Positions 2,004-27,948 of a stretch of DNA of 53,703 bases are shown here, piece by piece. Both the position numbers and the translations under genes were made by a program. Source of the DNA: Propionispora vibrioides (lineage in GTDB: Bacteria > Bacillota > Negativicutes > Propionisporales > Propionisporaceae); contig NZ_FODY01000030.1 in NCBI RefSeq assembly GCF_900110485.1, forward strand, positions 1-53,703, written 5' to 3'. Each line of letters starts with the position of its first letter. Position 1 is the stretch's first letter. The notes under the pieces were generated by a model, which saw nothing but the letters and a program-made list of their open reading frames with translations, had not been told where the DNA came from and did not search any database.

Positions 2004-2888
2004 TTATTCAACCGGTTGGTCTAGAATTTGCATGAGATTATACATGTCTTCTGGAAGAGGTGCTGTCAGATCGAGTAGTTGCTCCGTAACCGGGTGTTTG
2101 AATGTCATCCGGTAAGAATGTAAGGCGTGGCGCTGAATAAGGGCTGTAGAGCCTCCATATAAGTCATCACCCCAAAGTGGATGGCCCAGAGAAGAGAGGT
2201 GAACACGGATCTGATGAGTTCGCCCGGTGAATAACTGCAACTCCAATAAGCAGCCCCGTGAAAAGGAGTGTAAAACTTTATAAGCCGTAATAGCAGCTTG
2301 TCCCTCCGGATCAATGGTGCGCTGAATAATGCTGTCTTTTAAACGCCCAATTGGGGCGTCAATAATTCCCTGCTGTTGCTTCATGTTACCTGAAGCCAGT
2401 GCCCAATAAATTCTTTGAATACTTTTTAAATTTGATGAAGACAGCATGTGTTGAATATGGGGAAATTTGGCGATAAGGATTAACCCGGAAGTGTTGCGGT
2501 CAAGGCGATGAACCGGATGAAATGAGCAAGCTATGTTTTGCTGCTGGTAGTAGGCGAGGACGCCGTTGGCCAGTGAAAGAGTATGTTCCTGTGTCGTTGG
2601 ATGAACCAATAGTCCCGGCGGCTTATTGATAACAAGCAGATAGCTATCTTCGTAAATGATTGAGAGTGGCATAGCCACTGGCAGAAGAGTTGATTCTTGC
2701 TGCCAGGTTAGTCTCACGACGTCACCGGATTGCACATTGACTGGTAGTGTTACTTGCAGCCCATTGACAGAGACGGTACCAGTATGTTTTACTTTTCGCC
2801 ATAACGATAAAGATATGCCTGCGTGGCGACGTAGAAAATCCTTTAGCGGCAAATTGTGGAAAGTTCCGGGGACAATGATTTCCAGCAT
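2004..2888 (-). CDS. RluA-family pseudouridine synthase
   Basis: It converts uridines in rRNA or tRNA to pseudouridine. The family motif HRLDRNTSG, with the catalytic Asp, is near residue 125. An S4-like N-terminal region (LKDFLRRHAGISLSLWRKV, VSVNG) precedes it, and the conserved GRTHQIRVH motif lies near 225. I use the start at 2888 (294 aa) because an AAGGAG site sits just upstream. The longer frame to 2933 adds 15 residues with no ribosome site. Which uridine it modifies cannot be read from the sequence. It runs in the same direction as its upstream neighbour, 84 bp away. Confidence 0.9.
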   Translation of the reverse strand: MLEIIVPGTFHNLPLKDFLRRHAGISLSLWRKVKHTGTVSVNGLQVTLPVNVQSGDVVRLTWQQESTLLPVAMPLSIIYEDSYLLVINKPPGLLVHPTTQEHTLSLANGVLAYYQQQNIACSFHPVHRLDRNTSGLILIAKFPHIQHMLSSSNLKSIQRIYWALASGNMKQQQGIIDAPIGRLKDSIIQRTIDPEGQAAITAYKVLHSFSRGCLLELQLFTGRTHQIRVHLSSLGHPLWGDDLYGGSTALIQRHALHSYRMTFKHPVTEQLLDLTAPLPEDMYNLMQILDQPVE

Positions 2889-2972
2889 GATTTCTCCTTT
2901 TTGCTCATAGTATATGCAATAGAGCAGAGACAATTAAGAATAAGTCCCTGCTCTACCCGCTGCTGTACCTTA

Positions 2973-23599: not shown

Positions 23600-23617
23600 A
23601 ACTTTAACAAAAAAATG

Positions 23618-23872
23618 TAAATGCAATGAGTAGGAGAAGTAAATTAGATTTGTCTTGCAGAGAGCCGGGGGGTGGTGAGACCCGGTAGATGGTCTGATTG
23701 AAATACACCTAGGAGTAGCAGGTCGAAATGTGAGTAGACTTTGCCGGAGCGCCACCGTTACCATAGGCTAGGGTATACAGACTTTGTCTCGTACCTGAGT
23801 TGAGCGGCTTGCAATGCAAGCAGGGTGGTACCGCGGGTTAATCCCGTCCCTGAGTAGGGGACGGGATTTTTT
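23618..23872 (+). promoter_or_regulatory. Tyrosine-type T-box leader
   Basis: A full T-box is visible. Stem I contains AGAGAGCCGGGGGGTGGTG near 23659. The specifier loop reads GAAATACACCT, with UAC (Tyr) at 23704-23706. The antiterminator box AGGGTGGTACCGCGG is at 23822-23836, followed by a terminator stem (23840-23850 with 23858-23868) and a T run. The UGGU bulge pairs with an ACCA-ended tRNA, consistent with tRNA-Tyr. Uncharged tRNA-Tyr should allow readthrough into aroF-tyrA. Confidence 0.92.
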
Positions 23873-25824: not shown

Positions 25825-25869
25825 AAAAACCATGTGGACCGGAGTTCTTCTCCGGTCCACATGGTTTTT
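25825..25869. terminator. Bidirectional terminator between tyrA and hydG
   Basis: A perfect 19-bp stem (25825-25843 with 25851-25869) has a 7-nt loop and A/T ends that give a T run on both strands. It overlaps the hydG stop codon. Confidence 0.92.
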
Positions 25870-27295
25870 AAAAGTATAAATCGCGTGAACCTTCCGTGAT
25901 TTCCTTCAGGCGTTTTACTGTCTGACGGCGGATACTTTCCTGTGGAATGGTAGCGAGGGCGTTTTGAATCATCTTTTCACCGCTGGCCTTGGTCTGTTCA
26001 TCTGTCGCATAATCCAGTAAATACTCCTGGAAAGTCAGCAAGGCATTGGGCAAACAGACATTTTGTATTTCGCCGCTTTTGGCCAGACGCATGAAGCGGT
26101 CGCCGGTGCGTCCCTGACGGTAGCAGGCCGTACAATAGCTCGGGATAAAGTCATGTTCGCATAACATCCGGATAATTTCCTCCGGCGAGCGATTGTCGGC
26201 CGGTTCAAACTGGGCCGCGCTGGCCGGTACCGTGTCGGTATGATAAGCCTCCTGATAACCGCCGACGCCGGTACAGGAACCGGCGCTGATTTGGGATACC
26301 CCATAGTTAATTAATATATCACGGAAAGCAGAGTCCTCCCTGGTAGAAAGGATGATGCCCGTGTAAGGGACTGCCAGCCGTATTACGGCTATTATTTTTT
26401 GAAAGGCCGCGTTATCGACCAGATAGGGGAAAGTGGAAAGTGTAATGCCCGGTGCCGGGCGCAGGCGCGGCACTGAAATCGTATGGGGGCCGACTCCGTA
26501 GGTAGCTTCCAGATGAGCCGCATGCAGAAGCATGGCAGTTACTTCGTATTTATAATCATATAAACCAAACAGCACGCCGATACCGACATCGTCAATACCT
26601 GCCTGCATAGCACGGTCCATCGCCGTGGTGTGCCAATTATAGTCAGTTTTTGGTCCACTGGCATGAAGCTTGGCGTACATTGGACGGTTGTAGGTTTCCT
26701 GAAAAAGAATATAGGTTCCGATGCCGGCGCTCTTGAGTTTTTTATATTCGTCAATAGTTGTTGCCGCAATGTTCACATTGGCCCGGCGAATCGCACCATT
26801 GCCGGACTTAACGCTATAAATGGCCTGTAATGCTTCAACCACATAATCAATCGAACAGTTGAGCGGATCTTCACCGGCTTCTACCGCCAGCCGTTTGTGT
26901 CCCATAGATTCTAAGATTTCCACTTCCCGTCTGATCTCGTCCATTGTCAACCGGCGGCGATGCTGGTGATTTGCCTGGCGATAGCCGCAGTAGGTACAGT
27001 TGTTTACACAGTAGTTGGCAATGTATAGAGGGGCAAACAGAACAATCCGTTTTCCGTAAATGGCTTCTTTAATGGTCGAGGCAGCTGCAAATAATTCTTC
27101 CAGCAGGTCGGAATCATTTACTTCGAGAAGAGTTGCGGCATCGGCAGCTGATAAGCCCTGATAACCGAGCGCCTTGGTTAAAATCTGTTTTACGATGCCA
27201 GGATCTTGCGCTTTTACTTTAGCATCAGCTAAAAGCCGGGAAATCAGTGAGTCGTCAATAAAGGCATCGCTTGTCCGTTCTTTTTCATCAATCAT
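25868..27295 (-). CDS. hydG: [FeFe]-hydrogenase maturase HydG
   Basis: This radical SAM tyrosine lyase makes the CO and CN ligands and the iron synthon of the hydrogenase H-cluster. The 475-aa protein has the SAM-cluster motif CVNNCTYCGY near residue 90 (C-x3-C-x2-C). The C-terminal second-cluster motif CTACYRQGRTGDRFM is near 385. The start at 27295 overlaps the TM1266-type gene by 8 bp and follows AAGGGAGAG. HydE and HydF are not in the window. HydG consumes tyrosine and lies opposite the tyrosine-regulated operon, which may be coincidence. Confidence 0.96.
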   Translation of the reverse strand: MIDEKERTSDAFIDDSLISRLLADAKVKAQDPGIVKQILTKALGYQGLSAADAATLLEVNDSDLLEELFAAASTIKEAIYGKRIVLFAPLYIANYCVNNCTYCGYRQANHQHRRRLTMDEIRREVEILESMGHKRLAVEAGEDPLNCSIDYVVEALQAIYSVKSGNGAIRRANVNIAATTIDEYKKLKSAGIGTYILFQETYNRPMYAKLHASGPKTDYNWHTTAMDRAMQAGIDDVGIGVLFGLYDYKYEVTAMLLHAAHLEATYGVGPHTISVPRLRPAPGITLSTFPYLVDNAAFQKIIAVIRLAVPYTGIILSTREDSAFRDILINYGVSQISAGSCTGVGGYQEAYHTDTVPASAAQFEPADNRSPEEIIRMLCEHDFIPSYCTACYRQGRTGDRFMRLAKSGEIQNVCLPNALLTFQEYLLDYATDEQTKASGEKMIQNALATIPQESIRRQTVKRLKEITEGSRDLYF

Positions 27296-27566
27296 GCAGG
27301 TTCTCTCCCTTTTCAATAGTTTTTGCAGTAAGGGCGGATTTTACTGTTACGCCGGGAAGATTGCCAAGTTTTCCTGTCAGAGCGCCGACTTCGTCAGTAT
27401 TTCCTTCGATGATAAGTGCGATGACCCCCACATTTTCCTTATGATTAGGGATGCCCATGCGGCCGGTAATCAGATGGCCGTATTGTGAAAGAATCGTATT
27501 AACCCGGTGGGCTGCACTTTTAGGGTCTTCAATAATGATGCCGATAACACCAATCCGTTTGGACAT
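27288..27566 (-). CDS. TM1266-type putative hydrogenase-system regulator
   Basis: This 92-aa ACT-like/NikR C-terminal-like protein has RIGVIGIIIEDPKSAAHRVNTILSQYGHLITGRMGIP and VIALIIEGNTDEVGALTGKLGNLPGV (in parts), matching the small family named as an iron-only hydrogenase system regulator after Thermotoga TM1266. It has no DNA-binding domain. It precedes hydG and overlaps it by 8 bp. AGGAGGCAACCAGT precedes the ATG at 27566. A longer frame to 27767 only reads through the leader RNA. Confidence 0.88.
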   Translation of the reverse strand: MSKRIGVIGIIIEDPKSAAHRVNTILSQYGHLITGRMGIPNHKENVGVIALIIEGNTDEVGALTGKLGNLPGVTVKSALTAKTIEKGENLHD

Positions 27567-27636
27567 ACTGGTTGCCTCCTTAAATATAGAAGAAAAATGA
27601 TCGCCTTGCGGAGAGTAGTTGTTTCGGAATGATGAT

Positions 27637-27667
27637 AAAAAAGGCCTTCTTACACAGTAAGAAGGCC
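27637..27667 (-). terminator. Attenuator terminator of the hydG leader
   Basis: On the minus strand, GGCCTTCTTA pairs with TAAGAAGGCC (27643-27652 with 27658-27667), followed by TTTTTT. It lies 70 nt upstream of the TM1266-type gene and downstream of a folded leader, so it probably acts as an attenuator. Confidence 0.85.
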
Positions 27668-27785
27668 GGCCCTTAGAAGATGGCAGGTACATGGTCTTCC
27701 TATGCGCAGGCATATAGCCCTTGCTTGCAGAAAAATAGGTTTGTCCTTCAAAGCGCGCACTAGGCACCCTTCGTCAGATATCTTT
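27668..27785 (-). promoter_or_regulatory. Candidate riboswitch-like leader of the hydG operon
   Basis: On the minus strand a leader of about 110 nt precedes the terminator. CCTAGTGCGC pairs with GCGCATAGG (one bulge), closed by GGGT/ACC-type pairs. Inside are the small hairpins TTTG-AAGGA-CAAA and AGGGC-TATAT-GCCT. A TATAAT box on the minus strand lies just upstream (about 27787-27793). The arrangement of promoter, fold, terminator and gene is that of a riboswitch or protein-binding attenuator. I could not match it to a known class. Confidence 0.5.
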
Positions 27786-27948
27786 ATTATATAACAAAAT
27801 GTCGGAAACCGATAATATAAATTTCCCGGCAGACGGAAGCGGGAGCCTATTAAAGTAGTCTTGTTTTGTAACTTTATTGCTTTCCACCGCGTAATATATA
27901 GTGGACCTGATAATGGCTAGTCTAAATCAATGATTAGGAGGAGGAAAA

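Follow-up and report, generated by a model that had tools for sequence, protein, structure and literature searches.

On the minus strand of the window (the whole 53.7-kb stretch of DNA analysed), a leader precedes a gene of the TM1266 family (NCBIfam TIGR03959, 111.8 bits with a cut-off of 60.8) and hydG (TIGR03955, 652.7 bits with a cut-off of 312.15), and hydG overlaps the TM1266 stop codon (Table 1). The TM1266 product has a relative in the PDB, 2NZC (2nzc_A, E 6.6e-14). The preliminary description had placed a TATAAT box, a leader, and a strong terminator ahead of this gene pair; all of these elements are present, on the minus strand. The leader is about 115 nt long and P1 starts straight after the -10 box. 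The promoter scan reported no sigma-70 site at the TATAAT; a -10-like box also occurs in relatives, with the same spacing from P1. In whole-genome model searches, the leader RNA has a single copy in its own genome.

The leader promoter adjoins a divergent YmaF-like gene (PF12788, 27949-28392, plus strand) with an aspartate run near the C-terminal end of its product. Farther along the window, a T-box leader (23617-23854, plus strand) precedes genes for DAHP synthase and TyrA, which converge with hydG; in the alignment, its specifier position reads UAC (tyrosine). Tyrosine is the substrate of HydG.

Table 1. Elements of the TM1266-hydG leader and operon (positions in the window)
Feature	Positions	Strand	Sequence or description	Basis
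-10 box	27786-27791	-	TATAAT, without recognisable -35	sequence
Hairpin P1	27744-27778	-	UCU-GA-(stem and loop)-AA-GGA (UCUGACGAAGGG...UUUGAAGGA)	R2 and R3 matches, covariation
Linker P1/P2	27732-27743	-	A/U-rich, variable in length	alignments
Hairpin P2	27698-27731	-	UCUGCAAGCAAGGGC-UAUAU-GCCUGCGCAUAGGA, two-fold symmetric module	covaries in other classes
Putative antiterminator strand	27693-27702	-	UAGGAAGACC, shares part of the P2 3' strand	duplex test
Intrinsic terminator hairpin	27643-27667	-	GGCCUUCUUAC-UGU-GUAAGAAGGCC, 11 pairs	folding, terminator scan
Terminator U tract	27637-27642	-	six U	sequence, terminator scan
Shine-Dalgarno of TM1266	27575-27580	-	AGGAGG	sequence
TM1266-family gene	27288-27566	-	putative hydrogenase system regulator, ACT/NikR-C-like	TIGR03959, PF21699
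hydG	25868-27295	-	[FeFe]-hydrogenase H-cluster radical SAM maturase	TIGR03955

Without its terminator, the window leader shows no extra folding stability over shuffled sequences (z 0.08; z -1.68 with the terminator). A single sequence is therefore insufficient to show a structured RNA, so that the claim rests on comparison, and single-sequence folding was dropped as evidence. The folded leader of the preliminary description does hold as a structured RNA, not as the long bulged stem that is the minimum-energy fold of the single sequence; comparison supports two hairpins, P1 and P2, instead.

In a DNA search of 100 relatives, the core UCUGACG..GGA..UCUGCAAGCAAGGGC-loop-GCCUGCGCNNAGGA recurs far outside the genus, each time ahead of TM1266. 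A covariance model from eight Negativicutes sequences (R1), searched in 380 genomes of the class, gave 19 matches followed by TM1266 (18 with TM1266-hydG and one with TM1266-hydE); two further matches at E of about 0.05 were rejected as chance. The retrained model (R2) recovered four more members among the TM1266 loci and matches the window at 27782-27692. A DNA pattern scan over the whole genome collection gave, outside Negativicutes, mostly chance matches. The weak matches that count as chance in the various searches are L060, L062, L135, and L320.

Beyond Negativicutes, a search of 398 phylum genomes with R2 yielded four weak matches besides the own genome: two precede hydG (L136 and L137), one precedes TM1266-hydF (L138), and the fourth is chance. 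When 1 kb ahead of each of 80 hydG genes was searched with R2 unfiltered, the 11 best matches and the lower-ranked L203 were all sense-oriented and ahead of TM1266-hydG or hydG. A third model (R3) was made from 14 sequences, none of them from Negativicutes. In the window, its sole match is at 27779-27693 (28.3 bits, E 4.9e-4 in 227 kb), which is an independent confirmation since R3 contains no Negativicutes sequence. Among 59 genomes of one class (that of G600), 26 have R3 matches, and the 30 loci read there head TM1266-hydG, hydG, TM1266-hydF, or hydF, with one exception (L275). The exception is a copy with a terminator and no hyd gene within 1.5 kb downstream; one nearby ORF is transposase-like.

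Over 289 genomes spread across Bacillota, R3 matched 50 places in 45 genomes. At 47 of these 50 the first gene is TM1266, hydG, hydE, or hydF, and the RNA there has the position expected of a riboswitch, in the 5' leader and on the same strand as genes of one pathway. Twelve of the 50 places are training sequences; 35 of the 38 new places are at hyd-maturation genes. The three others are a locus ahead of a gene for a 182-aa protein (L305), a contig end (L317), and L320 (E 0.014, chance). The RNA at L305 (positions 2864-2960, minus strand) is convincing, has a terminator, and is the second copy in its genome (G527); the 182-aa protein has no Pfam family. The operons headed by the RNA include TM1266-hydE-hydF, TM1266-aspA-hydF, hydE-hydF, and hydE-hydG, and none of the RNA loci read has a hydrogenase subunit gene as its first gene. 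An association with TM1266 only, suggested by the Negativicutes data, was dropped on finding leaders before hydG, hydE, and hydF without TM1266. The RNA is conserved across dozens of bacterial families, is widespread in Bacillota, and is almost perfectly specific to H-cluster maturation genes. With hydE and hydF operons also under such a leader, the link to hydrogenase maturation is stronger than could be seen from the window.

Some neighbourhoods hold additional genes. An aspartate ammonia-lyase-like gene (aspA) follows TM1266 at L290, L300, and L304, in TM1266-aspA(-hydF) operons. In two unrelated families (L303 and L307), the RNA and TM1266 are followed by a gene for an ECF-transporter S-component-like protein (PF12822, just under the cut-off), with no maturase.

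Comparison of relatives, as proposed in the preliminary description, found the stems conserved, with strong compensatory change both in Negativicutes and in other Bacillota classes. In Negativicutes, P1 has changes on both sides in 9 of its 13 pairs, and the covariation score is reached by none of 500 shuffles; the sequence of P2 is near-invariant there. Unguided folding of the alignment of the 14 sequences from outside Negativicutes yields two hairpins with 2x2 internal loops, and double-sided changes occur in 15 of the 22 pairs. In 54 sequences outside the R3 training set, pairs are formed in 92.8% of pair cells, double-change cells number 276 (86.4 in shuffles), and the covariation score is 0.618 (0.221 shuffled, with 0/500 shuffles as high); this alignment was fitted to the R3 model, with a bias to that structure, the model itself coming from other sequences. 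Sliding the partner columns by one to three positions lowers the score to ≤0.17. A conserved fold with compensatory base changes, of the kind expected of a riboswitch sensor, is thereby present.

The P1 consensus is NYCU-GA-N4-..GGG-loop-CCUG..-N4-RA-GGRN and that of P2 is CCU-GA-N4-AA-GGG-loop-CCU-GA-N4-NA-GGG. The present P2 pairing was revealed by L136 and L137; an earlier one (UGC-GCA-GGC with bulges) was abandoned, being broken by members with CCUACGC or CCUGAGC. P2 is two-fold symmetric, each half being YCUGA-N4-NAGGR (CCUGA-N4-AAGGG twice), and the same elements occur in P1. Since the halves of P2 are alike and recur in P1, the RNA is built from duplex modules that repeat and are two-fold symmetric, with conserved U-G pairs beside the G.A/A.R internal loops.

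The preliminary description recognised no known riboswitch class in the leader, and the Rfam scan it called for agrees. With Rfam 15 at permissive settings (E up to 10), nothing credible matched the window leader; over the whole window, the only match above the gathering score is the T-box mentioned above. Twenty related loci and 17 further ones (16 of other lineages) gave no match above the gathering score at the RNA and no sub-threshold match to it that makes sense. The leader does not qualify as a T-box leader, a type marked by Stem I, a specifier loop, and an antiterminator T-box sequence: the only Rfam T-box matches are at 23617-23854, on the other strand. In the literature searched, nothing of relevance links TM1266, hydG, or hydF to a riboswitch, no RNA-level regulation of hydE/F/G was found, and the papers examined on candidate and former orphan RNAs are silent on hydrogenase maturation, one of them on hydrogenase altogether; an earlier description has a slight residual chance. 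We conclude that the leader belongs to an undescribed class of cis-regulatory RNA of H-cluster maturation genes; the class, its fold, and its association with these genes are what the comparison shows.

Other leaders precede TM1266 as well. A clearly different one of about 130 nt ("class B") stands before a more distant type of TM1266-hydG in Sporomusa and others (18 loci). It contains GGU-GA-GCUG..CGGC-AA-ACC and CAU-GA-GGG-UUCGU-CCC-AA-AUG, then a terminator; it likewise has GA/AA internal loops, and it has no Rfam match. A third type, in five loci of family f4, reads TGACGGAAAAC...TCTGCAAAGG..CTGCGCAGGCGAGGCGAAAGCAC before its terminator. Within one Sporomusa genus (g29), two genomes (G082 and G326) have the class A leader with its TM1266-hydG and six have the class B leader with the distant TM1266-hydG, which suggests that the operon was exchanged.

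How the RNA might act is suggested by an alternative pairing between the 3' strand of P2 and the 5' arm of the terminator. Most members, the window leader among them, have a terminator after the two hairpins. In the 36 members with a detectable terminator, the P2 3' strand plus the next 12 nt was paired with the terminator 5' arm and compared with its own shuffles: p is below 0.05 in 13 and below 0.1 in 20. For the window leader, 9 of 10 positions of UAGGAAGACC (27702-27693) can form pairs with GGCCUUCUUA (27667-27658), with p 0.10. The predicted pairing has statistical support across the set, with single members weak and kinship inflating the significance; the Fisher combined p of 1e-11 is too optimistic, given the relatedness of the sequences. 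A folded P2 and the putative antiterminator would be mutually exclusive, so that stabilisation of P2 should favour termination. A signal that stabilised P2 would block the antiterminator, the terminator would form, and the maturation genes would be off; without the signal, the antiterminator would form and the genes would be transcribed. We infer that the RNA probably switches the maturation genes off.

The expression platform is not uniform across the RNA class. The main Halanaerobium-like family (f96, so named from gene content and lineage) mostly has no detected terminator, and its members need another platform. In nine Halanaerobium-type members, GGGGAGGG directly follows P2, with an AUG next and a short ORF, frequently MSKFK or MPNFT..., and this arrangement may be such a platform. 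In three Sporomusa members (L054, L056, and L059, one of them Sporomusa malonica), the RNA is close to the start codon and no terminator lies between the two. Translation control would be more likely than termination there, because the terminator is missing and the RNA abuts the ribosome-binding site.

Three other explanations carry little weight. Chance plus a conserved terminator would agree with the window leader, which alone folds no better than its shuffles, but it is refuted by the genome-wide specificity of R3 (the independent match in the window and the 35 new places at hyd-maturation genes) and by the covariation; we give it practically no weight. As little can be said for a coding stretch that extends TM1266 in frame at its N-terminus. 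An open frame does run from GTG 27767 to 27288, yet in L002, the nearest relative at 90% identity, P1 and the linker carry indels of -2 and +2 that compensate each other, in L024 the frame does not run on into TM1266, the terminator and the Shine-Dalgarno sequence stand between the conserved stretch and TM1266, and the base pairs covary; the RNA also precedes hydG, hydE, and hydF. The indel pattern and the differing downstream genes refute such an extension. In an attenuator governed by tRNA, ribosome, or leader peptide, a short ORF just after P2, with the AGGA of P2 as its Shine-Dalgarno sequence, would decide the fate of the terminator. The window has AGGAAGACC-AUG directly after P2, and the Halanaerobium-type members with their AUG and ORFs such as MSKFK would suit this scheme. 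However, the ATG found after P2 in 28 of the 54 members (16.8 expected) owes its excess to one family, many members lack it, the putative peptides share neither length nor codon run, and any such ORF would start only after the covarying part. A leader peptide was rejected for want of a common length or codon run, and attenuation of this kind is very improbable.

The harder choice concerns what triggers the RNA. The genes that the RNA heads suggest the state of H-cluster assembly, and not the hydrogenase structural genes, as what is sensed. We lean towards a riboswitch that directly binds a small molecule or metal species of H-cluster assembly, and rate this reading of the undescribed class as somewhat more likely than not. 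Counting against it, two hairpins with small internal loops make a modest aptamer next to those of most metabolite riboswitches. The less probable, though serious, alternative is that the TM1266 protein, perhaps with its own ligand, binds the leader hairpins and promotes termination of its own operon and of other hyd-maturation operons. As an ACT/NikR-C-like oligomer without a DNA-binding domain, it might work on the leader in the manner of ribosomal proteins or PyrR, and the repeated module with its two-fold symmetry would be a fitting site for an oligomeric protein. At most places, the RNA has TM1266 as its first downstream gene, and all eight genomes tested with the RNA before hydG or hydE alone encode it elsewhere. 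Six Selenomonas-type genomes (family f11) have hydG and neither TM1266 nor the RNA. As the RNA is found only in TM1266-encoding genomes, a protein trigger fits equally well. Against this, TM1266 generally co-occurs with hydE/F/G and its presence wherever the RNA is found is expected anyway; the eight of eight and the Selenomonas-type absence are both confounded by this co-occurrence and by descent. The RNA also heads hydG, hydE-hydF, hydE-hydG, and hydF operons in which TM1266 is not the next gene, many TM1266 genes have no such leader, and we know of no RNA-binding ACT/NikR-C-like protein of the TM1266 kind.

A more specific version can be put forward only tentatively, at a little short of an even chance: a riboswitch for an H-cluster assembly intermediate or an iron, cyanide, or carbonyl species, or else TM1266 as an RNA-binding, cluster-responsive regulator that uses the two-fold symmetric RNA site. 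The OFF polarity and the ligand of the RNA are both things that we infer. The idea that a ligand linked to hydrogenase maturation would be new keeps its footing in that no known class matches and the stems are conserved; binding of a metabolite stays a proposal.

If true, either mode of regulation, by a riboswitch or by TM1266 and RNA, would give the maturation of [FeFe]-hydrogenases its first known case of feedback control. Being widespread and specific for H-cluster maturation genes, the RNA makes it possible to test directly what is sensed by cells as they build the [FeFe] centre. It also lets the function of TM1266, labelled a "putative regulator" for years, be tested. In the case of a riboswitch, candidates for the ligand are an organometallic intermediate and an iron species, and a sensor of such a ligand would be a tool for hydrogen production engineering.

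Among known leader RNAs, the Moco/Wco RNA (RF01055) is reported ahead of hydrogenase or formate dehydrogenase genes (PMC5651825, PMC9481103). Its fold is different, the members tested here have no Rfam match to it, and the present RNA heads maturation genes rather than hydrogenase subunits. The ldh2 motif, found ahead of Ldh_2 genes (PMC8632094), is likewise an orphan leader RNA in Negativicutes, and hydrogenase genes are not mentioned in that report. Leaders autoregulated by a bound protein (ribosomal protein leaders, PyrR sites) similarly have small hairpins before the operon of a regulator that, in the case of TM1266, may bind RNA; unlike them, the RNA also stands ahead of operons that do not start with TM1266, for which RNA binding is hypothetical. 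With the riboswitches that control a terminator (purine, glycine, guanidine-II), the leader shares the 5' position, a covarying fold, the linkage to one pathway, and an overlap of the sensor 3' strand with what is here a predicted antiterminator, and with guanidine-II also the two tandem hairpins. It differs from them in matching no Rfam sequence or structure and in its two-fold symmetric hairpins with GA/RA loops beside conserved U-G pairs.
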